Below, one piece after another: positions 9,652 through 25,733 of a DNA stretch of 64,000 nt. Under the pieces are notes generated by a model that was given only the letters and a program-made list of their open reading frames with translations, was not told the DNA's origin and searched no databases. The stretch covers positions 1-64,000 of the forward strand of contig NZ_MVDE01000024.1 in the NCBI RefSeq assembly GCF_002843385.1, given 5' to 3'. The DNA is from Labilibaculum manganireducens. GTDB lineage: Bacteria; Bacteroidota; Bacteroidia; Bacteroidales; Marinifilaceae. Position 1 is the stretch's first letter. Every line of letters starts with the position of its first letter. Made by a program: the position numbers and the translations under genes.

Positions 9652-12129
9652 TCATTTCGAGCTGATATTAATTATGTCTCCAACATTCATATTAATATCG
9701 TATTCATAAACTTTTCTAACAATTTGCTTTTGAATCGATTCACCTGAATGATTTTTTGTTTTTGGATTTGTTCTTGTTGAGAAGAAATGATTTGGATTGT
9801 CCCCTTGCGCTTCAATTAAATGCTTCCCCTGTAATGGGGTATAAGAACGAATACGGCAATTGCCGTTTATTGTAGATTCAATGACAGCATTTGTTAGCTG
9901 ACCATTTTTCCAATTCATACTTACAATAAAACCTCCACGGGATTTAAGGCCGGTTATTGCTCCTTTATCCCAAGTATCAGGTAAGGCCGGTAATAAATGA
10001 ATAGCACCGTCATGGCTTTGTAATAACATTTCTGAAATGCCTGAAGTACAACCAAAATTTCCATCTATCTGAAATGGAGGATGGGCATCAAATAAATTTG
10101 GATAGGTTCCTCCTTGTTGGCTTCCATCTTCCTGAATGGATGGACGTAATTGGTCAGCTATTAATTTTAAGGCATGATTACCATCAAGAAACCTTGCCCA
10201 GAGGTTCACTTTCCATCCCATAGACCATCCTGTAGATTCATCCCCGCGTGCAAGAAGCGAAGTTTTTGCCGCTGCCAATAACTCCGGTGTTTCAAAAGGT
10301 GATATTTGGTTGGATGGATAAAGCCCATATAAATGGGAAATGTGTCGGTGTCTATCATCCTGTTTGTCCCAATCGTGCATCCATTCCTGAAGTTGCCCCC
10401 ATTTGCCAATTTGCATGGGCGCTAACTTGTTAAATAATGAACGAAGACTGTCTGCATATTCATGATCGATATCAAGTATATCTGATGCCTCAATGACATT
10501 ATTGAATACATCGTAAACCAATTGATTGTCCATTGTTGTCCCCCCTGCAATGGTTGTACCGGAATGATGTGAATTTTCAGGCGATATGGAAGGACACACA
10601 ACCAGCCAATGATGTTCCGGTTCTTCAACCAATATATCTTTATAAAACAATGAAACACCTTTTAATACAGTGTATTTTTTCTTTAAAAAATCAACGTCAC
10701 CTGAATACATGTAGTGGTACCATAAGTGCTGACTTAACCACGCACCTCCCATTGGCCATAAACCATAATAACCTCCATCAACAACTCCTGAAATTCGCCA
10801 TATATCTGTATTATGGTGAATATTCCAACCTCTGGTACCATACATATAAGAAGACGATTGTTTACCTGTTTCTGAAATATCATCAATAAGATCAAACAAA
10901 GGTTCGTGCATTTCCGAAAGGTTTGTTGGTTCTGCAAGCCAGTAATTCATTTCCGTATTTATATTTACGGTATACTTACTATCCCAGGGCGGTTTTATTT
11001 TATTATTCCAAAGACCTTGCAGATTGGCAGCCTGTGTTCCGGGTTGCGAGCTTGAAATTAAAAGGTATCTACCAAATTGATAATATAAAGCTACTAATTG
11101 AGGATCGTTCCCCGTATTGAATTGTTCCAATCGAACGTCAGTTGGATTTTTAATAGAATCGGTAATCCCTACATTTATTTTAACCCTGTCGAAAAATTTC
11201 TTATACAAATTCGTATGGGCTTGTTTTAATTGGGCAAAATCTTTTGTAAATGCAGCATCTAAAATACTTTTCGCTTTTAATTCAGCATTTCCTGAAATAT
11301 CCTTGTAATTTTTAAAATTTGTCCCCACGGACAAATAGATAACCAGTTTATCTGCATTAGTTATAACTAAGGTACTATCAGTAGATTTTAGTTCTCCTCC
11401 TGTTATCTTTGGTTTTATGATGGAAGTAAATTTTACTTTTCCTTTTTTATTCTCATAATCGCTGCTTGTACCTTGCAGCCAAATAGCATTATTATTGCAT
11501 TTTATACTATATTTTTCATGAGGACTATTAACTGATAAAGTACACGAAACAGAGGATGGCTTATCAGCTGTTATTTCAACAGCAATAATATTATCTGCAA
11601 GAGATGAAATTACCTCGCGCCGATAAGTTACGCCCTTGGTCTTATATTCAACACTCGCAACAGCTTTTGAAATGTCTAAATCCCGATAATAATCAGTTAT
11701 ATCATGGTTGTCTGGAAATACTATTTGCAAATTTCCAACAGGCTGGTAACACATGCCGTAATTATTATCCTCCTTTGTTCTACGAGGCAGGTATTTGTCG
11801 GCTAGTTGTTGAGCTTCCTTATATTTTCCTTCAAAGATGAGTTGGCGAATTTCAGGTAAATAATCTTTAACCGCAGGTAAAATATTATTTCCCGGTTCTC
11901 CTGCCCAAACTGTTTCTTCATTAAACTGAATGGTTTCTTCAACAGTTCCACCATATACCATAGCACCTAACCTGCCATTACCAATGGGCAAAGCTTCCTC
12001 CCATATCTTTGCCGGCTTAATATACCATAGTTTTAATTTGCTTTCGGTGAAATTTTCATTATTAATTGAATTGGATGTACAACCTGTAATTGTCAGAATA
12101 CTGGCGAATAAAATTACTCTTAAAATCAT
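9652..12129 (-). CDS. Glycoside hydrolase family 95 (alpha-L-fucosidase/galactosidase type)
   Basis: The 825-residue protein starts with a lipoprotein signal ([17 protein letters not shown]) and the GH95 N-terminal domain ([38 protein letters not shown]). The catalytic (alpha/alpha)6 barrel follows with [20 protein letters not shown], the SPENSHH region expected to hold the general acid Glu, [18 protein letters not shown], and [20 protein letters not shown]95 enzymes cleave terminal alpha-L-fucose or alpha-L-galactose. In a pectin locus the target could be the fucose or L-galactose of rhamnogalacturonan side chains or xyloglucan. It lies 29 bases after kdgF. Length is normal. Confidence 0.92.
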
Positions 12130-12158
12130 ATATTTCTTGTTATTTTGTATGCAAAGTC

Positions 12159-12545
12159 CTACTTTTTATGCCTGCTGTCAACACCTAAATAAGATACTCC
12201 ACTACCCGATAGAAAATCTTCCCGAACCGGACTGAATACATCTATTAATACACCCGCTTCCAGACATACTGCTCCATGTAACATATTCGGCTCAATATAT
12301 ACGCCGTCACCTACGCCAATCACCTTTTTCTCACCACCAATAATAAACTCAAACTGACCACTTGCGCAACAGGTTGTTTGTGTGTGGAAATGCTGGTGAG
12401 GTGCACCAACAGCTCCTTTCTCAAATTTCACTTTCACCATCATAATTTGATTGTCATAGCCTAAAAACTGACGGGAAACACCAGCTCCTAAATCTTCCCA
12501 TTCTAATTCTTCTGTCAAAATAAACTTCTCACTATTACGTTTCAT
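12159..12545 (-). CDS. kdgF: KdgF-like cupin, unsaturated galacturonate ring-opening protein
   Basis: The 128-residue single-domain cupin carries HQHFHTQ (His50, His52, Gln56) and a later His90 (PNMLHG). These match the metal-binding set of KdgF, which converts 4,5-unsaturated galacturonate to the linear keto-uronate. [20 protein letters not shown] and a C-terminal [11 protein letters not shown] are also family-typical. Cytoplasmic, no signal peptide. It acts on monomers released by PL10 plus GH105. The start codon coincides with the end of an intercistronic repeat element present twice just upstream, and the 5' end of that element also reads ATGAAACGT like the gene start. It is co-oriented with GH95 29 bases downstream. 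Confidence 0.88.
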
Positions 12546-12633
12546 ATGTTTATAATTTTAAGTTTTTGTCATATGGAACTTACCATATAATCATCTCCCT
12601 GTGTGTAGAAAGCTTTATACATGGACGTTTCAT
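12543..12633 (-). repeat. Intercistronic element copy A (before kdgF)
   Basis: Read on the minus strand the unit begins ATGAAACGTCCATG, contains GATGATTATATGGTAAG and TTCCATATG, and ends in AATTATAAACATATG, where the last ATG is the kdgF start codon. An imperfect hairpin forms between TATGGAAC-CCAT and ATGG-GTTTCATA. It is shared with copies B and C. Confidence 0.75.
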
Positions 12634-12751
12634 ATGTTTATAATTTGTTTTTATTTGCCATATAGCCTGTCCCGAACTTGTTTCGGGAGAACTTACCATG
12701 AACAAATAATCATTCTTCTTCGGTCACAATTGCCTGTCATGGACGTTTCAT
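12631..12751 (-). repeat. Intercistronic element copy B with inserted palindrome
   Basis: This copy is tandem to copy A and has the same ends (ATGAAACGTCCATGACAGG to CATATG on the minus strand). It carries an extra stretch of about 25 bases at 12665-12689, including the palindrome TCCCGAACTTGTTTCGGGA, which splits the shared sequence CATATGGAACTTACC. No gene starts at its downstream end; copy A follows instead. Confidence 0.7.
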
Positions 12752-12803
12752 ACCTTATTTTTAAATTAATTTTATAGATGCTTTAGTTCAATAAAGACGA
12801 ATG

Positions 12804-14441
12804 TTAATTCATAGTAAACCTATCAATATCCACATAACCTGAATCGTTTACTTTATTCATGCGTTGAGCAAAGAAACCAATTTTACTACCAATCCATCTT
12901 CCGGTATTGGCTGTGAAAGGTAAACCAACCGACTTGTAATCCAATCCATTTTCGGAATATGAAAAATGACAAATTCCTCCCACCTCAACTTTAACTTTCA
13001 AAAACAAATCGGAAGATACAGACTGAAAATCACCTGTATAATTCTCCTCCGATCCTTTGCGTGCATTCAAACAAGTAATCTCATTCAAAACCAATTCTCC
13101 ATTTTTATTCTCTACAACTACTGAGGCATAATCCTGTCCCATTACTATCAATCCAAATCTCTCACCTTCATTCAAAAGTGATAATTTTACTTTTGCAACA
13201 GCCTCAAAAGAAACAGCCGGCCATTTCTGAAGAAACAATGAAGGTACATCCCATAAATTTACAGATCCTTCAGAAGACGACTGACAATACATTCTGAAAA
13301 CACCTTTTCCAGGAAAGCTTTTTCCCCAATCGAGACCAGGATTGGCATGCCATTGCCATAACAAAGAAGGTGCATCACCATTAAATTCATCATTCATACT
13401 TTCAGGAGAAATCATCTCTGTTTGTTTAACATCAGGCTTACGATAAGTAATAACAGGTTCTCCTGTTCCATCGCCGTCAGCATCATCACCAATCACAGGC
13501 CAATTGTCTTTCCAATTCATTGGCTGCAAATGCACAACACGTCCGTATGCTTCCTGATCCTGAAAATGAAGGAACCAATCTTCACCGTCAGCCAAACTAA
13601 CCCAAGCTCCCTGATGAGGTCCGTTAATTTCTGTTTTGCCTTGACTCATAACTATCTTTGACTCATAGGGCCCTGTAATGTTTTTAGAACGAAGCACCAA
13701 TTGCCAGCCTGTAGAAACTCCACCTGCGGGAGCAAAAATATAATAATATCCATTCTTTTTATAGAATTTAGGTCCCTCAACAGTACCATTTCCATCATGA
13801 CCATCGAAAACCAAAATGCCATCGTCCAACAATGCAGTTCCATCTGGTTTCATTCGGTTAACAGCTAAAATACTTTTAATACCTGCTCTTGAACCTGCGT
13901 AACCATGTACCAAATAAGCTTGTCCGTCTTCATCCCAAAACGGGCAGGAATCAATCCATCCTTTGGCTTCTTTAATTAAGAGTGGTTCGCTCCAAGGCCC
14001 CTCTGCCTTTTCAGATTTCAACATGAAAATTCCAAAATCGGGATCGCCGTAAAAAATATAAAATGTTCCATTGTGGTAACGCAAGGATGGAGCCCATATG
14101 CCATTACCATGTTGTATTTTATTATAATGAGCTTTGGGCATTACTTTGGGTGAGGCATAAGCTATCAGTTGCCAATTTACCAAATCACGGGAATGAAGAA
14201 CAGGCAATCCTGGTGCACATCCGAAACTAGAAGCTGTCATGAAAAAATCATCGCCCACTCTAATGGCATCAGGATCGGAGTAATCAGCCTGAATAATTGG
14301 ATTGGTATAGGTACCATCTCCATTATCAGCACTTTTGAGTGTTACTTGAACTCCCTTGTAATCAGGAGATATGGTTGACTCAGAACAAGCCGAAACCAAC
14401 AAATAAACAGCTGCAAGTACACAAATCAATTTACTTTTCAT
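12804..14441 (-). CDS. Glycoside hydrolase family 43 lipoprotein
   Basis: The 545-residue protein has a lipoprotein signal (MKSKLICVLAAVYLLVSAC). The five-bladed propeller starts YTNPIIQADYSDPDAIRVGDDFF, holding the catalytic base Asp. IDSCPFWDEDGQAYLVHG follows with the pKa-modulating Asp, and TVEGPKFYKKNGYYY with the general acid Glu. A C-terminal beta-sandwich of about 200 residues (from SPESMNDEF) is of the type found in GH43 beta-xylosidases and arabinofuranosidases. It would remove arabinose, xylose or galactose side units from pectin; substrate cannot be read from sequence. It sits between PL10 (136 bases upstream) and kdgF, with two copies of the intercistronic element after its stop. 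Confidence 0.9.
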   Translation of the reverse strand: MKSKLICVLAAVYLLVSACSESTISPDYKGVQVTLKSADNGDGTYTNPIIQADYSDPDAIRVGDDFFMTASSFGCAPGLPVLHSRDLVNWQLIAYASPKVMPKAHYNKIQHGNGIWAPSLRYHNGTFYIFYGDPDFGIFMLKSEKAEGPWSEPLLIKEAKGWIDSCPFWDEDGQAYLVHGYAGSRAGIKSILAVNRMKPDGTALLDDGILVFDGHDGNGTVEGPKFYKKNGYYYIFAPAGGVSTGWQLVLRSKNITGPYESKIVMSQGKTEINGPHQGAWVSLADGEDWFLHFQDQEAYGRVVHLQPMNWKDNWPVIGDDADGDGTGEPVITYRKPDVKQTEMISPESMNDEFNGDAPSLLWQWHANPGLDWGKSFPGKGVFRMYCQSSSEGSVNLWDVPSLFLQKWPAVSFEAVAKVKLSLLNEGERFGLIVMGQDYASVVVENKNGELVLNEITCLNARKGSEENYTGDFQSVSSDLFLKVKVEVGGICHFSYSENGLDYKSVGLPFTANTGRWIGSKIGFFAQRMNKVNDSGYVDIDRFTMN

Positions 14442-14577
14442 TTTTCAATACTTTTTTAGTTTCAATTTCTTTTATCTAATGTATATAAACCTTTCTCAGC
14501 GCTCCAAATCTGTTAAAATCATAGTTATCATAAGTACTGACAAAGCAATTTTTCCTGTCTATTGTTTATATACAGCT

Positions 14578-16170
14578 TTATTTTCGAGACTGATCAGATT
14601 TTAAGTAATTAATCAGAACATTCATATTCTGGATGTACTCTTTAGTCGAAATATACAATTTGTCAGAAGAATCAGGATAGGTAGACGTATCTGTTTCATC
14701 ACCCACACGTGTTGTTGAATACTCATCACTTTGATTTTGATCCTGACCGTCCCCAATGTAAGGATGGCTAATAAAAGCATGTTTCACCAACCACCTATTT
14801 TTCTGATCAAGGGAGGAAATAATATTTTTTACCTCAGCTTCCGAAGCAACGCCATTAAATACATTACGGTTTAGATCATAGAATCGTTGAGGTGTATCAT
14901 TTTCCATAAAACAAGCCTCCTTTAGAGGCGAATCTTTTGTCACTTTATCTATATCAAGCTCATTAAGACTTTTATATTCAGACTTGAGTTCATCAAGTTG
15001 AATACGACATTTACCGTAATAATGAGCCAATAACTTTTTATCATCATTATCAAGGTAGTACGTTCCAAATTTCACATTTGATCCTTTCCGATGCACATAT
15101 ATTGGCTTATTAGTTCCTACTTCTACAAAAGTTGGATGGGTTCTATAGGTTTCTATCTGATTTTCGGGAAGTCGTGTACTCTCCAACCAACGAATTGCAT
15201 CAGGAACACGGGAAATAAATTTTTTATCTCCCGTATATTGATAAAATTTCAGTAGAAGCATTGCATTTTTGCATGTTGTTGATGGCAAAAAAGCTGCCGG
15301 CTCATAAGTTCGGGCTCCTTCTGTTTCCATATTCAAATTAAGCTGCTGTCCCCAAGCTCCGCAAGCATCTTGAGAAATCAGATAAAAATCCATACCCCGT
15401 CGAATCGGTTCCAAAAACCGTTCTTCCCCCAAAGTCAGATAGCTTTGAATCAAAAAATGAACATTTTCCCAAATTACATCGTCGTTAAATGTGTAAAACG
15501 AACTATAATCAGGATGACCCTGTTTATTGAAGTCATATTTTAACGGATACCGTTGTGGCCATCCACCTGATGCATACTGACTTTTTAAGATAAAGTCAAT
15601 TGCTTTATCAAGAGCAGGTTTATAGACTGGATCCAATTTTGCAAGATAGATTCTCAATAAAAACCTTGCTGCATCAGATGTAATATCATCGTCAAAAGTA
15701 GAATTGCCGTAATAATGCTGGAATTCTTCAAGTCTCCACCCATTTTTACCAACAGTACTATACCATTTCTTTAAAGAGCGGTCTCCGGCAAAATCGATCA
15801 TATAATTCCAGCCACCTTCGTTACTTTGCCCCCAAATAATAGCTGTTGCAACTTGTTGGGCAGCTTGATAATAATATTCGTTTTTCGTGGTTCTATAAGC
15901 ATCTAAAAATAAGTGTCCAATGCTAATTGTTCCAGGATATTGAAGCCAAATCATGGTTTTATAAGCTTCCATCTCGCCCCATCGACGAGATAAATCGGGC
16001 AAATAATACCAAACATAGCCTCCATTTGTACTCACCTCTTCAACCATAAATTGAGTGGCTTTCAGCATCGTTTCACAAATTTGTTCCTTTGAAATTTCAG
16101 ATTGAGCTTTCAGCTTCGGAACGAAAGCTAAAAGTAAAAAAATTAACAGTTGAGTTTTAGTAGATTTCAT
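14578..16170 (-). CDS. pelA: Pectate lyase, polysaccharide lyase family 10
   Basis: The 530-residue protein has a signal peptide (ending LKAQS) and an (alpha/alpha) toroid-like fold with PL10 signatures: GGYVWYYLPDLSRRWGE, IWGQSNEGGWNYMIDFAGD, NSTFDDDITSDAARFLL, GGWPQRYPL, FNDDVIWENVHFL and the region around TYRTHPTFVEVG. It would cleave de-esterified homogalacturonan by beta-elimination with calcium, producing unsaturated oligogalacturonides for GH105 and KdgF. A C-terminal section from about residue 390 contains a second conserved segment (PQRFYDLNRNVFNGVASE). It follows the LamG-like gene by 26 bases and is exported to the periplasm or outside. Length is in the range of Bacteroidota PL10 enzymes. 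Confidence 0.88.
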   Translation of the reverse strand: MKSTKTQLLIFLLLAFVPKLKAQSEISKEQICETMLKATQFMVEEVSTNGGYVWYYLPDLSRRWGEMEAYKTMIWLQYPGTISIGHLFLDAYRTTKNEYYYQAAQQVATAIIWGQSNEGGWNYMIDFAGDRSLKKWYSTVGKNGWRLEEFQHYYGNSTFDDDITSDAARFLLRIYLAKLDPVYKPALDKAIDFILKSQYASGGWPQRYPLKYDFNKQGHPDYSSFYTFNDDVIWENVHFLIQSYLTLGEERFLEPIRRGMDFYLISQDACGAWGQQLNLNMETEGARTYEPAAFLPSTTCKNAMLLLKFYQYTGDKKFISRVPDAIRWLESTRLPENQIETYRTHPTFVEVGTNKPIYVHRKGSNVKFGTYYLDNDDKKLLAHYYGKCRIQLDELKSEYKSLNELDIDKVTKDSPLKEACFMENDTPQRFYDLNRNVFNGVASEAEVKNIISSLDQKNRWLVKHAFISHPYIGDGQDQNQSDEYSTTRVGDETDTSTYPDSSDKLYISTKEYIQNMNVLINYLKSDQSRK

Positions 16171-16196
16171 CGTATTTACATTTGTAGCAAGCTTAG

Positions 16197-16874
16197 CTAA
16201 TAAATCATAAAATCATCGGGGTTAAGTTGTTGTGGAACTATTCTAATTTTGTAAATCATTCCTTTAAACCAAGACCGTTTATTCAAACGAACACCAATTG
16301 AGCAGTTGCCAGTCTCGATTGGTTGATAAGAAAACGACTCGGACAATTCCTTTTTTCCATTGACAAAAGTTGTCAAGCTATTAGGCCTCACAACTAAAGC
16401 AACATGATACCATTGTCCAAGCTGATGAGTAAGTTGTTCGTTAATTAAGGCTTTTTTGTCATTTCCGGAAGCCGCAAAACCATCGAAATACCAGATATCC
16501 GTAACTGCACGGATTTCCAGCAACATTCTATTACCTAAGACCTCACCAATATGAAGAATCCGCTGTTCGAAAGAAGCATTTATATCCGGACAAAAAATCA
16601 TTTCTACGGTAAATTCCTTCATCGATTTAAGAGGCATTTCCTGTAAAATAAGAGCATCACTACTTCCATTAAAGGAAACAGCTTTTCCATAAGGAGAATC
16701 AACCAGTTTTGGCTGACCAAGTATCTTTATCTGTTTTGAGTTCTGTTGCAACAAATCAGCCACTAACCACTCTGTATGAAATTTTACTGTGGATTTTTTT
16801 TCTGAGTTTTGACCATTCCCAGAGAAGGGGAAATACATAAAAAACAAGACTAGCAATATTGGAGTAATCTTCAT
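16197..16874 (-). CDS. LamG/concanavalin-like lectin-fold secreted protein
   Basis: The 225-residue protein has a signal peptide (ending SGNGQ) and a single jelly-roll domain. GKAVSFNGSSDALIL, FTVEMIFCP, WYHVALVVRPNSLTTFVNGKKEL and IYKIRIVPQQLNPDDFM are typical of LamG_3 domains. No catalytic residues are evident. Such proteins often bind glycans or accompany glycosidases. It lies 26 bases before PL10 and downstream of SusD, so a carbohydrate-binding helper role is likely but inferred. Confidence 0.75.
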   Translation of the reverse strand: MKITPILLVLFFMYFPFSGNGQNSEKKSTVKFHTEWLVADLLQQNSKQIKILGQPKLVDSPYGKAVSFNGSSDALILQEMPLKSMKEFTVEMIFCPDINASFEQRILHIGEVLGNRMLLEIRAVTDIWYFDGFAASGNDKKALINEQLTHQLGQWYHVALVVRPNSLTTFVNGKKELSESFSYQPIETGNCSIGVRLNKRSWFKGMIYKIRIVPQQLNPDDFMIY

Positions 16875-17045
16875 TTGTCTGTTTTTTTATTGAACTCAAC
16901 AAAATTCATTGCAAATTCCTTTTAAAGGGAAGTAATAAATAGTGTTTATCCAATTTGAGAACTTATATTACAATCTCTATTTAAATAACAGAGATTAGCT
17001 TCGTACTTTGTTACCATTCACCTAAATTCAGAGATAAAAAGCAAA

Positions 17046-17075
17046 GATAATCCGTCAACGAATCGACGGATTATC
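17046..17075 (-). terminator. Hairpin after susD (terminator or attenuator)
   Basis: GATAATCCGTC and GACGGATTATC form a perfect 11-bp stem with an 8-base loop. On the minus strand a T-rich stretch (TTTGCTTTTTATC) follows. It lies 30 bases after the susD stop and before the enzyme genes, so it may end or weaken transcription after susCD and favour their higher level. Confidence 0.65.
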
Positions 17076-17104
17076 CTATTTCTTATTAAGAATTTAAAGC
17101 ATTC

Positions 17105-19234
17105 TTACTGATTAAATCCATAACCATTGCTTATTCCTGAATTCTCTAAAATCGTAGAATTCAATGGAACCATATAAACCGGAGGATTTCCTGCGCTATA
17201 GTCAGCATCACTATAACCTTTAAAAAGATCTGTTGAGTAATCTGCAGCATTAGCTACAATATCAGCCCCCCAGTTTGTTTGAACATATCCATCAGCCTCA
17301 AGAGCCAATGCTTCAGCGCTTCCAGGTGCGATATAATTGAACAATCCTTTGATAGCTACGTTAGTTTCTGGTCCATTAACAGTTTTGCCAATCTCAGTTG
17401 CAAGACTTTGCCAATCGTCATATTGTCCTCTCCAACCAGGGAATAATACAGGATCTGTTTCGTCTACACATTGCGTAGTCAAACGATAACCATGAGTTGC
17501 TTTTGCATCAACCATTTTAGTCCAAATATACATTGGCATTTGGTTGCCATTCTCAAATTGATAATATCCATTAGCCTCTAAACCACTAATAATAGTAGTC
17601 ATCAATTCTCTGTTATCTACTATTGCTTTAGGTAGTTTACCAGTACGAATAAGATCATAACGACGCATTCCTTCTCCGCCAAATTCTAATTTACGTTCTT
17701 CCAAAACAGCATTGTAAACGCTGCCAGCTTTTGCAATAAAACCGTTTAAATCGGCATCTGCAGGTGATGTAAATGCACGATTGTGTACTTTCTCTAATTC
17801 TGTTCTCGCAGGACCATCATTACCTAAAGCTGCCTCAACCTCAGCAAGCATCAAGATAACATCTGATACACGCATGTATGGGCAATTAATTCCAGATTTA
17901 CGTGATTTCGCAACATATGGACTAGTCATACGGTTCTCATCCCATTTATTATTAGCAATTCCACCGTGTGATTTCGAACCAGGAATCCAGTCAATCATTT
18001 TTTCAGTACCATCTCCTTTACTTGCTGTTACTGCTACAGTAACATCACGTCGCAAATCTTTAGGATCGAAAGAACCATAATAATAATGTGCCTGGAAACG
18101 TGACTGAGCATAACTTTTTCCAGGGAAAGCTTTTGAACTACCACCATCCGAAGGACGACCAAATGCATAAGGACGTTCTGAATAGTAACCATACTCTTCC
18201 GGAATCTCATAGATAGACTCTTTCGATAGTTGTTCGCCAGTCATCATCATCTGAAATACGTATTGGAATGGATTCCCAAATTCTTGTCCAGCTCCTCCGG
18301 CAGAACGTGGATCACTTGTAATTAAATAAGCAGAACCAGAATTTTCTACACATTTAGTCAGATATGTTTTAGCAATATTGAAATAATCCTGCCAGTTAGA
18401 ACGACGGGAATAAACTGCTCCATCCTTTTCAGTTCCCATAGTCTCAAATGAAATTACACTTCCATCCAATTTTTTGTAGAAATCACTTCCAAGATCAGTA
18501 CGACGGGTAGCATAACCTCCGGCATAAAGGCACATACGTCCGATTAATCCCTGTACATAAGTTCGGGTCATTACATCAGCATTGTTTCCTCCCTCACCAA
18601 CTCGGTACATATAAGGCTCTACCTTCATCAATTGGTTGATGTGATATTCATAAATTTCATCACGAGAAACAAGACCTTTTTTCTCTGTATCACTTACAGA
18701 AAGTACGTGAGGTACATCACCATAAAAGCGACACAATTCAAAATATGCAGTAGCTCTCAGTGCAACAGCTTGTCCGTATATATCCGACAATTCAGTCACT
18801 TCTCCACTACTCATCATTGCCTCAAAATCACTTGTTCCTTCAAACGCCTCAATCAAAGAGTTCGTTACTGACACAATCCCATAAAGAGCTGTCCAAGCTT
18901 TTTCACTATCCGTAAATGAAATGTCAAAACTTGAAGTTCCTCCTGGATAGAAATATTCAGGAACGTGACGTGTTTGTGATGAAAATGTTTCCGGATGATG
19001 TTCAACATCAGAACCGACAACTGCAAGATCGTAAAAAAGACCATTAGAGTGCACATATGCATTACCTCTCCATTTTTCGTATGCATTCAGTAAAGCTCCC
19101 TTTGCAGAAGTAGCTCCTGAAAATACAAATTCAGAATCTACAACCGAAGGAGAAGATGTATCTAAAAATTCTTCGCAGGAATTAAGCGATAAGGTGAATA
19201 CACCAATAATTGCTATAATTAATATTTTTTTCAT
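17105..19234 (-). CDS. susD: SusD/RagB-family outer membrane glycan-binding lipoprotein
   Basis: The protein of about 709 residues has a lipoprotein signal (MKKILIIAIIGVFTLSLNSC; acylated Cys20). SusD family landmarks follow: ALRATAYFELCRFYGDVPHV, YVQGLIGRMCLYAGGYA, ARTELEKVHNRAF, and RKLEFGGEGMRRYDLIRTGKL. It would form the lid of the SusCD transporter that binds pectic oligosaccharides at the surface. The open frame extends to 19288, but the Met at 19234 starts the signal peptide, 40 bases after the susC stop. It is longer than many SusD proteins (500-650), with insertions between residues about 330 and 480. Confidence 0.93.
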   Translation of the reverse strand: MKKILIIAIIGVFTLSLNSCEEFLDTSSPSVVDSEFVFSGATSAKGALLNAYEKWRGNAYVHSNGLFYDLAVVGSDVEHHPETFSSQTRHVPEYFYPGGTSSFDISFTDSEKAWTALYGIVSVTNSLIEAFEGTSDFEAMMSSGEVTELSDIYGQAVALRATAYFELCRFYGDVPHVLSVSDTEKKGLVSRDEIYEYHINQLMKVEPYMYRVGEGGNNADVMTRTYVQGLIGRMCLYAGGYATRRTDLGSDFYKKLDGSVISFETMGTEKDGAVYSRRSNWQDYFNIAKTYLTKCVENSGSAYLITSDPRSAGGAGQEFGNPFQYVFQMMMTGEQLSKESIYEIPEEYGYYSERPYAFGRPSDGGSSKAFPGKSYAQSRFQAHYYYGSFDPKDLRRDVTVAVTASKGDGTEKMIDWIPGSKSHGGIANNKWDENRMTSPYVAKSRKSGINCPYMRVSDVILMLAEVEAALGNDGPARTELEKVHNRAFTSPADADLNGFIAKAGSVYNAVLEERKLEFGGEGMRRYDLIRTGKLPKAIVDNRELMTTIISGLEANGYYQFENGNQMPMYIWTKMVDAKATHGYRLTTQCVDETDPVLFPGWRGQYDDWQSLATEIGKTVNGPETNVAIKGLFNYIAPGSAEALALEADGYVQTNWGADIVANAADYSTDLFKGYSDADYSAGNPPVYMVPLNSTILENSGISNGYGFNQ

Positions 19235-19274
19235 ACCTAATTTAATTATCAAATTAACAATAATATTCCTCATA

Positions 19275-22200
19275 TTAGAAAGTAACATTTACTCCTAAAG
19301 TGAAAGTTTTTGCACGGGGATATGCACCCCAGTCCATATTAGTTGTTGGGAATATTTTCAAACTGCTAAAAGCGCTGCCTGCACTCTTTGGAGTTGTATT
19401 CACCTCTGGATCTACTCCTGAATAACCTGTTATTGTAAATAAATTATTACCTGTGAAGTATACACGGATTCTTTCAATTCCTATTTTTTGAGAGGCCAAC
19501 TTTGGAACATTATATCCCAATGTTACTGTTTGTAAACGCAAATAAGATGCATCTTCAACAAATGTAGAATAGGTTACACCATTCTCATTGTAAGGTAGAG
19601 CATATTTAGCATTTGCATTTAATGCTTTTAATGCAGCAGGATCAGTTACAGCTGCCAAATCTCCAGAAGAATTAACGTCATAAACTTTATAAGCGTCTTT
19701 TACAAAGGCTAAACGGTTCGCACCAATACTAGCATCTTTATTTCCATAACTACTTACCAAAGCTGCGGCATTGTAGATTTTTCCACCCAAAACCCAGTTC
19801 ATATTAGCACCTAAATCAAAATTTTTATATCTTAAATTTAAGTTAATTGACCCTGTATGTTTTGGTGTTGCTTCTCCCAATTCTGTATAATCCTCAGCAT
19901 CAACAGTTCCACTTTTATCTACATCTTTCAATTTAACAGCACCTGGGAAAGCATTCTGACCATCGGCAACATTAAACGGATTTGGATAACTTCCTGTAAA
20001 ACCTGTATCAAAATCAGCAATTCCGTCTTTTAGTGTATAAATACCATTTGCATAGTTAAAATCATCAACCTTATAGAATCCTTCACTTACATAACCACGA
20101 ATCACTCCTACTGATTTGCCTTCAATAAGTGCATAATCATACGCAGGCTTAGTAGCTGACGAAGCCCAATTAGAAGCATATTGATATTGATCAGTGTTTT
20201 TAAGATTATCAATATTGTTTTTGTTATAGTTGTAGATAAGATTTACTCCAAAATCCCAATCATCAGAACGAATAATATCGACTCCAACAGAAAGCTCGAC
20301 CCCTTTATTTGAGGTTTGTCCAAAATTTTGGTATTGGTAAGAATATCCTGTTGTATTGTCAACTGGAACAGCCATTAATAAGTCTTTAGTTGTGTTCCAA
20401 TAAACTTCAGCAACCCCATAAATACGGTTGTTGAACATTCCATAGTCAATACCTAAGTTTCTGGAAACAGTTGTTTCCCATTTTAAGTCTGGATTAGGAT
20501 AAAGACCTGATGGCTTGTAATAAGATCCAATACTACCGTTAATAGGATAATGAATATCACTGCTGCTACCACTTTCCCATGTTTCTTTCCATAATGAAGA
20601 GCTGATATTATCGCTGCCCGAAGCACCATAAGATACTCTTAATTTAAGGTTATCTAACCAATCCCTTGTGCTTTCCAACATAGGCTCATCAGAGATACGC
20701 CATGCAGCAGCTACTGCCGGGAAATATCCCCATCGATTGTTTGAAGCAAATTTAGATGAACCGTCAGCACGAACTGTAGCTGTAAAAAGATATCTGTCTT
20801 TTAATGAGTAGTTTGCACGACCAAAGAAAGACAATGAATGTGAAGGAGTTCCAACAGTGTTTAGTGGAGTTAAAGTTTCACCTGTTTGAATTAAACCTGT
20901 TGTTGTCTTATAATCAAAATTTTCAGGATATCCCTTACCTTTAACTTCTAAAGTAGTAGATTTCGATTTTAAAATTTCATTACCCAACAAAAAAGACAAT
21001 TTATTTGATTCTCCTAAATTAAATTCATAATTCAGAGTTGTAACTGAACGAAAACTTTCCGCGCCTTTTCTTTTTATGGTTGCAGTTTTATATCCATTGG
21101 TCAATCCATCTTCGTAGTAATTACTTTCATCATTAACTCTGGTAAATCCTACCTCACTACGAGCTTTAAGTCCTTTTATGATCTCCCATGTTAATCCAGC
21201 AAATCCACGTAAGTTTTGTGATTTTGTAATATTTGTAATATCATTAATTAAACCAATAGGATTACTACTTTCATCGATGTTTGCATCACCATTACCAAAA
21301 CTGGAAGAAACATCGGTATAATCAACACCACCTAATGGATTGTCAATTGGACGAAACCAGTAAGCTGAAGAAATTAGAGACCCTCTACCATTGGTATTAC
21401 CTTCTTTTCCACTTAATTCTGATTCTGAATAACGAAGATCAAAATCTACTTTTAAATTTTCAGCTAATTCCTGATCAATTTTGAAAGAAGCATTTGAACG
21501 CTCATAACCTGAATTAATCTTGATACCTTCATCATTTAAATATCCAACAGAAGCAAATACTTTTGTTTTTTCAGTTCCACCAGACAAACTAATAGTATGA
21601 CTTTGAGTAAATGCAGTACGTAAGGCATCATCGGTGTAGTTATGAGCCTTTACATTAGCGTAATCAGCATAATGATTACCATTGGCACTTCCTAACCCGA
21701 AATATTCAGCTATTCCGCTTCCATAACTAGCACCGTAAGCAGTAGCATAAGCCCATGTATGATTCACATATTCCTGTGCAGATAAAGTTTCAAGTGATTT
21801 TGCTACACTTTTAACCTGTGTGTACCCGCTATAAGTTACTTGAAGCTTTCCTGCTTTACCTTTTTTTGTAGTAACCAGAATAACACCATTTGCTCCACGG
21901 GCACCATAAATTGCTGTTGAAGATGCATCCTTTAACACATCAATAGATTCAATTTGATCTGCAGGAATTTCAGAAATAGAACTTACTGGAAAACCATCAA
22001 CAACAAATAGAGGATCGTTGGATTGAGTAATAGAACCTCCTCCACGAATTTTGATAGATACGTCAGCACCAGGACGCCCATCCTGACTAACCACATTTAC
22101 CCCCAACAAACGACCTTGTAATGCCTGAGCAACATCTGGTACAGAGATAGCTGCTAAATCTTCACCTTTAACCGAAGCTACAGCCCCCGTAAGATCTTTC

Positions 22201-22565
22201 TTTTTAACAACCCCATAACCAATAGCCACAATTTCTTCCAATTGTGTAAATGCTTCCTGCATCACTACATTAATTTCAGATCTTCCAGATACTGGAATTT
22301 CTTGTGTCTCCATTCCGATAAAAGAAACTACAAGTACATCTGATTGAGCATTTGGTAATTCTATTGAATAAATTCCATCAATACCTGTAATTGTACCAAG
22401 GCTTTGGTTGCCTTTTACTGTAACAGTTACTCCTGGTAATGGAAAATTTGTTCCATCAGTAACCTTTCCTGTTACTTTTTGTCCATAGCTATCAAGACTG
22501 CAAAATAGCAGCACAAAAAAGCCCAGCATAAAAAGTTTGCTAATTTTATTCAGATTTTTCTTCAT
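19275..22565 (-). CDS. susC: SusC/RagA-family TonB-dependent outer membrane transporter
   Basis: The 1096-residue protein has a signal peptide and an N-terminal CarboxypepD_reg-like domain (KVTGKVTDGTNFPLPGVTV). The TonB box region, plug domain (GRPGADVSIKIRGGGSI, DPLFVVDGFPV, IESIDVLKDASSTAIYG, GANGVILVTTKKGK) and a C-terminal barrel ending YPRAKTFTLGVNVTF follow. It imports oligosaccharides across the outer membrane with energy from TonB, paired with SusD encoded 40 bases downstream. It is preceded by 278 non-coding bases, so it probably has its own promoter; TTAATTTG on the minus strand at 22671-22664 is a weak -7 candidate. Confidence 0.95.
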   Translation of the reverse strand: MKKNLNKISKLFMLGFFVLLFCSLDSYGQKVTGKVTDGTNFPLPGVTVTVKGNQSLGTITGIDGIYSIELPNAQSDVLVVSFIGMETQEIPVSGRSEINVVMQEAFTQLEEIVAIGYGVVKKKDLTGAVASVKGEDLAAISVPDVAQALQGRLLGVNVVSQDGRPGADVSIKIRGGGSITQSNDPLFVVDGFPVSSISEIPADQIESIDVLKDASSTAIYGARGANGVILVTTKKGKAGKLQVTYSGYTQVKSVAKSLETLSAQEYVNHTWAYATAYGASYGSGIAEYFGLGSANGNHYADYANVKAHNYTDDALRTAFTQSHTISLSGGTEKTKVFASVGYLNDEGIKINSGYERSNASFKIDQELAENLKVDFDLRYSESELSGKEGNTNGRGSLISSAYWFRPIDNPLGGVDYTDVSSSFGNGDANIDESSNPIGLINDITNITKSQNLRGFAGLTWEIIKGLKARSEVGFTRVNDESNYYEDGLTNGYKTATIKRKGAESFRSVTTLNYEFNLGESNKLSFLLGNEILKSKSTTLEVKGKGYPENFDYKTTTGLIQTGETLTPLNTVGTPSHSLSFFGRANYSLKDRYLFTATVRADGSSKFASNNRWGYFPAVAAAWRISDEPMLESTRDWLDNLKLRVSYGASGSDNISSSLWKETWESGSSSDIHYPINGSIGSYYKPSGLYPNPDLKWETTVSRNLGIDYGMFNNRIYGVAEVYWNTTKDLLMAVPVDNTTGYSYQYQNFGQTSNKGVELSVGVDIIRSDDWDFGVNLIYNYNKNNIDNLKNTDQYQYASNWASSATKPAYDYALIEGKSVGVIRGYVSEGFYKVDDFNYANGIYTLKDGIADFDTGFTGSYPNPFNVADGQNAFPGAVKLKDVDKSGTVDAEDYTELGEATPKHTGSINLNLRYKNFDLGANMNWVLGGKIYNAAALVSSYGNKDASIGANRLAFVKDAYKVYDVNSSGDLAAVTDPAALKALNANAKYALPYNENGVTYSTFVEDASYLRLQTVTLGYNVPKLASQKIGIERIRVYFTGNNLFTITGYSGVDPEVNTTPKSAGSAFSSLKIFPTTNMDWGAYPRAKTFTLGVNVTF

Positions 22566-22752
22566 TTAGATAAGTTTAGTAAAAAATTAGAATACACTTT
22601 AATATATTTGATTAAGATTAGAAATTTCATATTCACAGCATTTTTGAGCTATCAATTCCTACTCAAATTAAGTTTAATAAACATCAGAACATTTTTTGCA
22701 GGTTGCCTGCCACGCTCTTTATGTCAATCTCTAACGTTTGCGCCAACGGTCT

Positions 22753-22780
22753 AACGAACAGTTTAAGGTTCGTTTTTTTT
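22753..22780 (+). terminator. Terminator-like hairpin on the plus strand upstream of susC
   Basis: AACGAAC and GTTCGTT form a 7-bp stem followed by a run of eight T on the plus strand. Both flanking genes run on the minus strand, so it would end an antisense or short plus-strand transcript, or it may be part of a decayed repeat. The T run is on the wrong side to terminate the GH105 transcript. Confidence 0.4.
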
Positions 22781-22843
22781 CATAATACACATATACTCTT
22801 GTTTCCCAGTCTAAATATTGACATAGACAAGTGAAAATCACAG

Positions 22844-24031
22844 TTATTTATTCAGTTCAATTGCAGCCAAAATAAAAGGTGCAATTCCTTTAGGATCATT
22901 TACAACCCTCTTCTCTCTAATATAATATTCAAAAGAACCATCTCTGTATGGATTGCCACCCAAACCGCAACCTCCACAAATATCCTTCATCTTTATTCTT
23001 CCATTTTCATCCGTACTAATAAGGTTTTTAATAATAGAATCGAATACAGAATTGGCTATGTCCTGATATCCTTTATCAAGATATCCCTTGGATACCCCTT
23101 TGGCAAACGCGTAGCAAAACATTGCAGAACCAGAACCTTCCAGATAATTCCCCTCCCGGTTACCCTGATCAAGAACCTGATACCATAACCCACTATCTTT
23201 ATCGCGTACCTTCAGCAAGGCTTCACAACTATTTTGAAGAAGCGCAATAAGCTTATCCCGATCCTTGTGATTCTCAGGCAAATAATCTAAAACATCAACA
23301 ATAGCCATAACGTACCACCCCATAGATCTGCTCCAAAAATTAGGTGCACAGCCTGTTACTTTATTACTCCATCGCTGTTCACGACTTTCATCATAAGCGT
23401 GATATAACAAGCCAGTCTTTTCATCTAAAGTTTTTTCATAGATTAATTCAATCTGTAAGCATACCTCATCAAATAGTTCCGGAGTATTGAATTCCTTTGC
23501 ATATTGAGCTAAAAATGGAGAAGCCATATATATCCCATCCAACCACATTTGATTCGGATAGACTTTCTTATGCCAAAAGCCACCACTTTTGGTTTTTGGA
23601 TGATTTTGCATTTGCTCTACAAATGAGTAAAGTGCTTTGCGGTACTTTTCTTCACCAGTTCTTTTGTAAAGAGTAATAATATTCTTAGCTGGATTTATAC
23701 GGTCAATATTATACTCCTCTATTTTATAGCCTTTTACACCGCCATCTTCCTGGACAAAATAATTCACATAATCTTCCATATAACGGGAATATTTTGAATC
23801 AATGTCTCCTAAATGATCGATCGCCTGTCCTAAAAAAGCAATATCGTATTGCCATTTTACAGTTTTAGGATTTAAATAATGAATAAGGCTATCCGATTCC
23901 CTCATCACCTCATCGGCCATTTTTACTGACCATTTTTGCACCTCTTCCTTTTGATTATTTCCCGTTGCAGATGGCTTAGACTTACAACTGGCAAAAACCA
24001 ATAAGATGATTATAAATGAAATGTTTTTCAT
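22844..24031 (-). CDS. Unsaturated rhamnogalacturonyl hydrolase, GH105 family
   Basis: The protein of about 395 residues has a lipoprotein signal (MKNISFIIILLVFASC). The (alpha/alpha)6 barrel of the GH88/GH105 clan shows FWHKKVYPNQMWLDGIYMASPFLAQYA, GLLYHAYDESREQRWSNKVTGCAPNFWSRSMGWYVMAIVD and LDQGNREGNYLEGSGSAMFCYA. The Asp in YPNQMWLDG is the expected catalytic residue. It hydrolyses the unsaturated uronic acid from pectin-derived oligosaccharides after lyase action. The Met at 24031 (not the longer frame from 24073) gives the signal peptide and is the ATG at the end of intercistronic element copy C. GH28 lies upstream in the same direction. Confidence 0.9.
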   Translation of the reverse strand: MKNISFIIILLVFASCKSKPSATGNNQKEEVQKWSVKMADEVMRESDSLIHYLNPKTVKWQYDIAFLGQAIDHLGDIDSKYSRYMEDYVNYFVQEDGGVKGYKIEEYNIDRINPAKNIITLYKRTGEEKYRKALYSFVEQMQNHPKTKSGGFWHKKVYPNQMWLDGIYMASPFLAQYAKEFNTPELFDEVCLQIELIYEKTLDEKTGLLYHAYDESREQRWSNKVTGCAPNFWSRSMGWYVMAIVDVLDYLPENHKDRDKLIALLQNSCEALLKVRDKDSGLWYQVLDQGNREGNYLEGSGSAMFCYAFAKGVSKGYLDKGYQDIANSVFDSIIKNLISTDENGRIKMKDICGGCGLGGNPYRDGSFEYYIREKRVVNDPKGIAPFILAAIELNK

Positions 24032-24127
24032 ATGATTATAATTTGTTTTTATTTGCCATATGGAACTTACCATGCTGAAATAATCATCCCCCTGTGTGTC
24101 AAAATATCCCTGTCATGGACGTTTCAT
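24029..24127 (-). repeat. Intercistronic element copy C (between GH28 and GH105)
   Basis: This copy has the same ends and core as copies A and B: ATGAAACGTCCATGACAGG at its minus-strand 5' end, then GATGATTATT, CATGGTAAGTTCCATATGG, and AAATTATAATCATATG at its 3' end, where the last ATG starts the GH105 gene. It starts 7 bases after the GH28 stop and fills almost all of the gap. Confidence 0.75.
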
Positions 24128-24134
24128 AAGTGTT

Positions 24135-25733
24135 TTATTTTTTCACAGCAGTTTGCGTATTCTTTTCCATATCACTCTTAATGATATTCCCTTTTTCTGT
24201 CAAAAACGGCACATCACCTTCAACCAATAAATCTACACCTGAAAGAATATTATTTATTACAAATAGATTTGTTACCGACTGATTGCCTTCAATAAAAACA
24301 GGCAATTCTGTTGGTTGAAAACAATTATTAACCAATATATCAGAGCAATTATCCAACTTTATCACCGATGCATCGGCGGACAAACTATAAACGGTTAGAT
24401 CGCTGATCTGTATTTTTTCCGAATGATTAAATTCAATTGCATTTCCATTACTCACAGAAAGGCGAATATTTTTCATATCAATATTAGAAGCGTAATCACC
24501 TGTAACACCTGTTTTCGCATCTATCTGAATATCGTTAAAGCTTATTTGCTCAGCCGAACGTTCTTTCAATCCATAAATAGCAATGCCTTTATTAGCATTA
24601 GTCATTCTAATATTTGACAGATACACATTCCGAATAGCCGGAGTTCGGTCTGAAACCGGTTCCTCCGGTGTTTCATGATAATGCATATTAATCATCACAC
24701 CTTCTCTTAACATGTTGTGCATAATAACATTTGAAACCCGAACATCCTCAACAACACCACCTCTTCCTCTCATGGTTTTAATACGGATACCTCTGTCGGT
24801 TCCCTCAAACACGCAATTTGAAATAGCAACCCTACGCACGCTGCCAGACATTTCGCTGCCAATTACAACACCTCCATGCCCGTTAAGCATGGTACAATTT
24901 GAAATTGTAATATTTTCTGTTGGTCTGTTCGCATCACGGCCATCAGCATCACGGCCTGATTTAATTACGATACAGTCATCACCAACACTAATGTGGCTGT
25001 TACTGATTCTTACATTTCTGCATGATGAGGGATCAATTCCATCTGTATTAGGTGAGTCTCCCGGATTCAATATTGTAATTCCATCAATAGTAACATTTTC
25101 TGAAAAAACAGGCATCAAGGTCCAAAAGGGTGGATTTGTAAATGTTACCCCTTCTACCCTTACATTGGTACAATTATATGGCATAAATAAAGGTGGTCGC
25201 AAAAAACTCCCCATGCTTTGCAGATATTCATTCGTTTTAAGCATCTCTGCATTTTCCTTTTTAAATATTGCTTCCCATTTGGTATTGGTTTTCTCTCCTT
25301 CTCTTATGCGTGACCATAAATCCCACCATTTCTTACCATTGCCATCTATCAGGCCCCGTCCCTTAATTGTAACATTATTTGCATTATGAGAATAAATACA
25401 GGATTTAAAATTCCTCACCCGAACTCCTTCCCATCTTGAATCAATCATTGGAAGGTACGCATCAAAATCATCTGAAAATTTAAGAACAGCTCCCGATCCT
25501 ATATTAAGGGTTATATTACTTTTTAATTCTATTGGCCCGCTTAAATAAACTCCTGATGGAATATAAATCTCTCCACCTCCCTGTTCACTCAATTCTGCAA
25601 CAATTTTATTAATAATAGGCGAGCAGTTTACCAAACCCTTACTATCCGCACCTGCATCTTTTAAATCCACAACACTATTCTGCCCAAAAGTTAATTGAGA
25701 AACGAAAAGAAGAAAAACACAAAATAATTTCAT
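24135..25733 (-). CDS. Polygalacturonase, glycoside hydrolase family 28
   Basis: The protein of about 532 residues has a signal peptide (ending LTFGQ) and a beta-helix. All GH28 motifs are intact: NTDG (about 229-232), GDDC (251-254), GHG (285-287) and RIK (317-319). These hold the catalytic Asp pair, the His and the substrate-binding Arg/Lys. It hydrolyses alpha-1,4 galacturonan, or rhamnogalacturonan; exo or endo action cannot be read. The frame extends to 25787, but Met at 25733 starts the signal sequence. It is the first gene of the leftward locus, facing the hybrid regulator with 295 bases between that contain its likely operator. Confidence 0.93.
   Translation of the reverse strand: MKLFCVFLLFVSQLTFGQNSVVDLKDAGADSKGLVNCSPIINKIVAELSEQGGGEIYIPSGVYLSGPIELKSNITLNIGSGAVLKFSDDFDAYLPMIDSRWEGVRVRNFKSCIYSHNANNVTIKGRGLIDGNGKKWWDLWSRIREGEKTNTKWEAIFKKENAEMLKTNEYLQSMGSFLRPPLFMPYNCTNVRVEGVTFTNPPFWTLMPVFSENVTIDGITILNPGDSPNTDGIDPSSCRNVRISNSHISVGDDCIVIKSGRDADGRDANRPTENITISNCTMLNGHGGVVIGSEMSGSVRRVAISNCVFEGTDRGIRIKTMRGRGGVVEDVRVSNVIMHNMLREGVMINMHYHETPEEPVSDRTPAIRNVYLSNIRMTNANKGIAIYGLKERSAEQISFNDIQIDAKTGVTGDYASNIDMKNIRLSVSNGNAIEFNHSEKIQISDLTVYSLSADASVIKLDNCSDILVNNCFQPTELPVFIEGNQSVTNLFVINNILSGVDLLVEGDVPFLTEKGNIIKSDMEKNTQTAVKK

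Follow-up and report, generated by a model that had tools for sequence, protein, structure and literature searches.

MITEs are defined by terminal inverted repeats and by a target duplication of variable sequence. For IS200/IS605 elements, the position of cleavage is described as being set by a guide that lies just 5' of the foot of a hairpin, and the same source describes REPs as sharing this plan (PMC6006769). Where that source treats strand use, IS608-type elements are described as using the lagging template (PMC6006769). Against this background we analyzed a repeat from a pectin locus of Labilibaculum manganireducens, and we consider it rather likely that its units represent a short, non-autonomous, single-hairpin mobile element that targets the hexamer ATGAAA and is moved in trans, probably by an enzyme of the Y1-HUH type.

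The window, i.e., the whole stretch of 64,000 nucleotides that we analyzed (contig NZ_MVDE01000024.1, positions 1 to 64,000), carries this repeat three times. The original prediction of a three-copy element in front of gene starts describes a real feature: units 1 and 2 precede kdgF, and unit 3 precedes a GH105-like gene. All features given here lie on the minus strand. Unit 1 (12634..12751; 118 nt) is a long form with a nested hairpin and the first of a tandem pair located between a GH43-family gene and kdgF; the nested TCCCGAAACAAGTTCGGGA hairpin (12670..12688; 19 nt) is an optional part of the unit, and the internal guide TATATG (12659..12664) is complementary at five of its six bases to the terminal CATATG of unit 1. 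Unit 2 (12546..12633; 88 nt) is a short form that is missing from the relative G002, and its internal guide CATATG (12570..12575) is complementary to the unit-ending CATATG that contains the kdgF ATG. The two units are arranged head to tail ahead of this ATG (12545-12543), which opens the gene for a kdgF-like cupin protein (kdgF, 12159-12545); the ATGAAA target (12540..12545) is the kdgF start, and it is the native start in the empty relative G002. Unit 3 (24032..24127; 96 nt), again a short form and missing from both G006 and G002, is placed between a GH28-family gene and the GH105-like gene (22844-24031). Its internal guide, CATATG, is read from the sequence at 24057..24062, and its ATGAAA target (24026..24031) is the native start of the GH105-like gene, with the ATG at 24031-24029. 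Pfam matches at the locus are cupin for the kdgF-like and Glyco_hydro_88 for the GH105-like gene, with GH43, GH95 and GH28 around them; the Glyco_hydro_88 match of the gene behind unit 3 is consistent with GH105. As predicted, the ATG at the end of units 2 and 3 serves as the start codon for the gene that follows; unit 1 instead runs into unit 2. The length range of 88-118 nt in the window results mostly from the extra 19-nt hairpin of unit 1. Two tiny reading frames had also been proposed. The frame ATG AAA CGT CCA TGA is indeed found in units 1 and 3, but it runs on in unit 2 and in many other copies; only its first four codons are common to the copies, and upstream frames are not conserved beyond MKRP. 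An in-frame ATG at 24073, inside unit 3, adds 14 element codons to the GH105-like gene (frame 24073-22844), and gene callers may take it as the start of that gene.

The left end of the unit, the 14-mer ATGAAACGTCCATG, has three exact matches in the window, and allowing up to two mismatches also gives three; shuffled windows contain on average 0.63 such matches, and 3 of 100 shuffles reach three. It is the genome count (78 versus 0 for the reversed control), and not the window count, that shows the 14-mer not to be due to chance. These 78 exact copies are spread over the 5.3-Mb genome (35 forward, 43 reverse), so that the family is genome-wide and not tied to the pectin locus as had been supposed; with up to two mismatches, 154 matches are found in the genome and 51 in the control. 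The elements are mostly about 80-125 nt long and carry no gene. Guide and end were parsed in 73 of the 78 exact copies, with L016, L036, L041, L048 and L066 left out as truncated, odd or missed. The hexamer at the array ends, of which 57 were parsed, is ATGAAA in 53 cases, ATGAAT in three and ATGAAG in one; 43 arrays consist of a single unit and 14 of two, as counted by the ATGAAACGNCC start of upstream units. The nested, GC-rich TCCCGAAACAAGTTCGGGA hairpin occurs at 54 places in the genome, including 12670-12688 (up to one mismatch), and a hairpin of this kind is present in 38 of the 78 units. Units next to genes are mostly of the short form (31/45), and internal or gene-less units mostly of the long form (21/28; p 3e-4); an extra hairpin close to a start codon may be costly. 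The nested hairpin recalls CGTC-type REPs, and one repeat may thus ride inside another.

Comparison of three 20-kb stretches with those of two relatives (G002 and G006; about 88-97% identity) revealed the history of individual sites. Nine sites that hold a recognisable unit in L. manganireducens could be aligned. Five of them lack the unit in one or both relatives; the remaining four carry units in both relatives, and at three of these four the number of units differs. For one further site the homologous stretch was not found in the relatives. On the gene strand, the sequences of the empty alleles are CCTATT ATGAAACAATTC (both relatives), CTGCT ATGAAAATCATT (G002; G006 also has no unit there, yet it has lost the hexamer), GAAGAT ATGAAACGTAAT (kdgF, G002), AACACTT ATGAAAAACATT (GH105, both relatives) and AGTATT ATGAAATTTAA (both relatives). 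At each of the five sites the empty allele has a single ATGAAA (TTTCAT on the bottom strand), and in the filled allele ATGAAA flanks the insert on both sides. Insertion at the hexamer is precise. In front of kdgF there is no unit in G002, one in G006 and two in L. manganireducens. We read this as indicating that the gene start is older than the element, a polarity suggested by sequence comparison with two relatives and no outgroup. The unit, which had been envisaged as mobile or duplicated, has been gained precisely, with empty sites in close relatives, and gain between such relatives is fast.

At 43 of the 57 parsed array ends an ORF of at least 60 codons begins. Crude gene models place 32 of 350 background ATGAAA sites at gene starts, or 32 of 79 when those outside coding sequence are taken; relative to this noncoding background, array ends lie at gene starts with an odds ratio of 4.5 (p 6e-5). 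Copies that survive coincide with an ATGAAA gene start much more often than ATGAAA sites of the background do, and, as the enrichment is measured on surviving copies, selection against insertions inside genes contributes to it. At such gene starts the start codon is kept and the A/T-rich leader is new. At the other 14 array ends no ORF of 60 codons begins; at least three of them (L038, L051, L061) run into a diverged unit, and the gene-less ends L020 and L045 precede repeats that look, by eye, like terminators. Since some array ends meet diverged units or terminator-like repeats, the target seems to be a DNA word and not translation. The base in front of ATGAAA at single insertions is T in 66 of 76 cases with a CATATG-type guide, in 18 of 51 with other guides, and in 49 of 223 background sites. 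Over all guides, this base and the guide are complementary in 73 of 127 cases as compared with 54.6 by permutation, a value reached in none of 2000 permutations, in a count from which tandem neighbours were removed by a crude filter and to which related species contribute many rows. Elements of the CATCTG class show no preference for the complementary G in front of ATGAAA (5/39), which speaks against a simple rule.

The long hairpin that had been claimed for the unit is supported by covariation across species. Each unit is built in the order of a long covarying hairpin, an internal CATNTG guide and the unit end CANATG, often the start codon of the next gene. Apart from one constant mismatch, the guide TTCCATNTG is complementary to the terminal CANATGAAA, and the variable bases of the internal CATNTG covary with those of the terminal CANATG. 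The pairs of guide and end are CATATG/CATATG, CATCTG/CAGATG and CATGTG/CACATG, and more rarely CATCAG/CTGATG or CTGGTG, CATAAG/CTTATG and CATCCG/CGGATG. Because the search pattern required exact ends, their invariance is uninformative, and it is the variable positions that are informative. Our structure alignment of 47 units from many species, from which long forms were left out, comprises a 19-pair stem and a 6-pair guide helix. In it, 92.1% of the cells are paired versus 82.2% after shuffling, the covariation score is 0.248 versus 0.093, and double-change cells number 91 versus 25.7, none of 500 shuffles being as high in any of these measures; pairs changed on both sides number 12 versus 7.9, with 1 of 500 shuffles as high. 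The paired cells fall to 32-43% when the partner is shifted by one to three columns. There is one conserved hairpin per unit, the extra hairpin of long forms being optional. Read on the opposite strand, the order is TTTCAT, the element start, an A/T-rich arm, the guide CANATGGAA, a short spacer, the hairpin, ACG and TTTCAT.

We favor single-strand HUH transposition in trans because this opposite-strand order matches the plan of IS200/IS605 elements and REPs, in which cleavage site, guide, hairpin and cleavage site follow one another, here collapsed onto one hairpin. The element, whose precise insertion at ATGAAA leaves this hexamer at both ends and rebuilds the start signal behind it, would move as folded single-stranded DNA; tandem arrays would form when a new copy enters the ATGAAA that terminates a unit already in place. 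The most likely candidate enzyme, judged by the order of guide and hairpin, would be a trans-acting HUH (Y1) transposase. The element would probably be nearly harmless, because many genes of these bacteria start with the targeted ATGAAA.

The genome of L. manganireducens has five Y1 genes. The palindromes beside these genes differ in sequence from the element, and BLAST of the units against the five loci gave only short, chance-like matches. A covariance model run on 35 Y1 loci found nothing significant, its four matches having E values from 0.59 to 3.6; the best of these (L264; 18.5 bits, E 0.59) has the anatomy of a diverged unit and is located about 0.8 kb away from the Y1 gene. When 39 Y1 loci were scanned more loosely, one more diverged unit came up, in L285, about 0.35 kb beyond a Y1 gene. 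Both units belong to genomes other than that of L. manganireducens, and neither directly flanks the Y1 gene. A Y1 type with the motif DHCHC, absent among the five genes of L. manganireducens, occurs in G004, G006, G007, G017 and G016 (L261, L262, L264, L265 and L285). Diverged units lie within 1 kb of a DHCHC-type gene in L264 and L285 and at none of the other DHCHC loci looked at, so that their proximity is a lead and not an association. When 618 ORFs from the surroundings of copies were compared all against all, no recurrent transposase-like family emerged; the four families that recur, in six or seven loci each, are SusC-like and kinase-like by reading. A linked transposase was rejected, as no Y1 gene was tied to the element in the scans of Y1 loci or among the 618 ORFs. 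Three of the Y1 genes of L. manganireducens (L031, L033, L034) are of the YxxNQxxHH type and lie next to short palindromes of their own, GGTGCTCTGCACC, AACCACGAAGTGGTT and GCCTGAAAGGC; this class is described, in the source's account of it, as generally devoid of typical IS200 terminal structures (PMC6006769).

Among the genomes searched that have the element or match the model, 24 of 25 contain Y1_Tnp, or 23 of 24 when G012 and G435, which give identical places, are counted as the one genome they appear to be; all 16 of the good ones have it. It is also present in 11 of 19 relatives that have no exact 14-mer, taken from 25 such genomes, a comparison set that is not free of the element, as G016 belongs to it and carries the diverged unit L285. 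The association of Y1 with the element is weak, and it is confounded by relatedness and genome size. Y1 types differ between hosts, G424, for example, showing only a YVLMNP type and G440 only a YIKNQHEH type, and no Y1 was found in the 2.5-Mb bin G438. Copies in leading orientation account for 26 of 41 in G004, compared with 30 of 47 background ATGAAA starts, and the two proportions do not differ in this one genome, whose origin and terminus were taken from sampled GC skew.

The lack of a Y1 gene tied to the element among the loci examined also fits a mobile element moved by another enzyme, and ATGAAA at both ends would equally suit a recombination core or a target duplication of fixed sequence. 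We nevertheless judge it unlikely that an IS91-type Y2 enzyme, a tyrosine recombinase with an ATGAAA core, or an RNA-based route is responsible, for the order of guide and hairpin fits HUH elements, and the unit is too short for a group I or II ribozyme. An IS91-type Y2 enzyme was rejected, since a search of 18 genomes with the element failed to find Y2_Tnp in 10 of them.

Little weight, in our estimation, falls on the reading of the unit as a cis-regulatory RNA leader, whose guide would pair with the start codon until released by a signal or by translation of the tiny frame, and which would have spread by recombination or transposition and been kept for regulation. The covariation of guide and start codon speaks for such a leader. 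So do predicted folds: the terminal ATG of the isolated unit is mostly paired (unpaired probability 0.07), and in 45 of 47 sequences the guide pairs with the 3' and not with the 5' ATG. For 43 gene starts, the predicted accessibility of the start codon is 0.29 in the filled state versus 0.41 in a model with joined flanks (Wilcoxon p 0.013, lower in 30/43). The predominance of the short form next to genes, and of the long form elsewhere, can be counted on the same side. However, accessibility of the wider initiation window is unchanged over these gene starts (0.57 versus 0.55, p 0.53), and the two sites in the window disagree: the GH105 start is predicted to fall from 0.36 and 0.31 in the empty alleles to 0.03 when filled, while the kdgF start is at 0.61 with two units, 0.32 with one unit and 0.35 when empty (G002), the kdgF start with two units thus being more open than the empty one. 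Moreover, 14 of 57 array ends have no ORF of 60 codons behind them, at least three because a diverged unit follows; the downstream genes look functionally diverse, as judged by their first residues; upstream frames are unconserved past MKRP; and units are gained fast between close relatives.

Pairing of guide and end over at least five of six bases is kept in 42 of 45 units at genes (one of the three misses, L014, is a parsing error), in 15 of 16 internal units and in 10 of 12 gene-less ends. That pairing is similar with and without a gene agrees no less well with a function in mobility than with a regulatory one. Two further candidates were rejected: RNA-level selection at gene starts, as the pairing is not clearly better kept there than in gene-less or internal units, and a balanced switching of the guide between the 5' and 3' ATG, as folding favors the latter. 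Of the proposal that the unit is a leader setting translation or mRNA stability, what stands is a modest predicted drop in start accessibility; gene-less ends keep the pairing at a similar rate, and the sites in the window do not agree. The base at position -3 is C in nearly all parsed ends. In Flavobacterium johnsoniae, A at -3 favors initiation and secondary structure tunes it, according to the cited description (PMC6847099). Because pairing of the start is predicted and -3 is C rather than A, a mild dampening of translation by the element would be expected. On the transposition model that we prefer, pairing of the guide with the start codon in the mRNA would lower translation mildly, likely as a side effect.

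Ordinary local duplication, in which one leader was copied by recombination within the pectin locus without transposition, is highly improbable: tandem copies do vary by whole units among relatives, as unequal recombination would also give, but 78 dispersed copies, single units in 43 of 57 arrays, and clean empty sites with intact flanks at ATGAAA refute it for the dispersal of the element. It may contribute to the number of units in arrays.

Restriction to this one place would have told against the original prediction; the element is present in many species. All eight congeners tested contain the 14-mer, in 2 to 88 copies each, as do 2 of 15 other family members; of 16 genomes more distant within the order, four contain it once each, and these single matches may be due to chance. 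Counts of the 14-mer are lower bounds, because a diverged unit (L285) is present in G016, which has no exact 14-mer. With a longer pattern, GTDB species yielded at least 95 stretches; among the matches listed Labilibaculum is most frequent, and Marinifilum, Niastella, Terrimonas, Saprospiraceae, Paludibacter and Bacteroidales bins are also represented. The covariance model finds the element in 13 of 395 sampled Bacteroidota genomes, L. manganireducens included, a floor given that nine candidates were scored per genome under stricter filters. Weaker relatives keep the plan of ATGAAA, hairpin, guide and CANATGAA, and several have a fully paired lower stem, e.g., AACGCCC with GGGCGTT; the model match L239 is a diverged unit with the guide CATCCG and the end CGGATG. 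In Bacteroidales bins (L098:718-846, L178:65-193), another hairpin, CCTGTCTGACGAACAGGCAGG, is situated at about the same position of the unit, a position that may accept foreign hairpins repeatedly. Carriage by phages or plasmids was rejected, since no match was obtained in plasmids and phages (blastn) or in viral contigs (long exact pattern). A known RNA family was likewise rejected: Rfam gave no match above the gathering score in the loci searched (0 in 10 loci), and none at the units in window positions 11800-24600 at E values up to 5. No paper describing the element was found in the open-licence literature searched, an absence that is not proof.

Taken further, and as a tentative proposal that we consider possible though somewhat less than even, the units may belong to a phylum-wide Bacteroidota family of self-guided, start-codon-homing, gene-less, single-hairpin DNA that is directed to a common start-codon hexamer by an internal multi-base Watson-Crick guide, rebuilds the start codon and leader, and whose guide also pairs with the start of the mRNA. 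If this is true, mobile DNA would here target a functional signal, the start codon, and not a neutral site, and the host gene would stay usable. Many leaders of these genomes, and in-frame starts inside units such as the one at 24073, would then derive from a mobile element, although gene callers may annotate them as part of the gene or as its native leader.

How does this element compare with the systems described so far? Like MITEs, it is small, gene-less, mobile and found near genes; unlike them, it has no terminal inverted repeats and possesses direct ATGAAA ends of fixed sequence. With the CGTC REPs it shares CGTC in front of the hairpin, and that superfamily is described as occurring in Bacteroidetes among other phyla, with no dedicated transposase found in the cited work (PMC3733652). 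The stems of CGTC REPs are given as 8-9 bp with loops of mostly 4-5 nt, whereas the stem of the element has up to 19 pairs and a long loop; among CGTC REPs inverted (HH) dimers are also described as predominant, and REPs as located mostly downstream of genes, in contrast to the start-codon ends of the element (PMC3733652).

The element resembles REP/BIME-RAYT (TnpAREP) systems in being a short, dispersed, gene-less hairpin of many copies, of the kind that the cited accounts describe as thought to be mobilized in trans (PMC6006769, PMC8266576, PMC3733652), and most of its host genomes have Y1 genes. No REPtron, i.e., no RAYT gene flanked by the element, was found among the Y1 genes of L. manganireducens and part of those of the other hosts. 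It differs from REPs in that it has no GTAG or GTGG tag, ACGT preceding the stem on the gene strand and TTA on the other. With 80-125 nt it is longer than the 21-65 nt reported for REPs in these accounts, and it is fixed at ATGAAA in head-to-tail arrays, whereas the inverted pairs described for REPs set those apart (PMC6006769, PMC8266576, PMC3733652).

In anatomy, the likeness to IS200/IS605 elements would lie in a subterminal hairpin and in a guide, directly 5' of the hairpin foot, that may pair with the cleavage site, and further in insertion beside a short fixed target of which the empty site has one copy, as the cited source describes (PMC6006769). The element neither encodes nor adjoins tnpA (Y1) in the loci examined, and it has one hairpin for both ends where IS200/IS605 elements have separate left and right hairpins. 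Its target has 6 nt (ATGAAA/TTTCAT) as opposed to the tetranucleotide described there, and its guide has a covarying complementarity of at least six bases as opposed to the 4-nt guides of that description (PMC6006769). Because this complementarity is longer and clearer than that of the 4-nt guides of IS200/IS605 elements, the proposed role of the guide becomes a testable idea.
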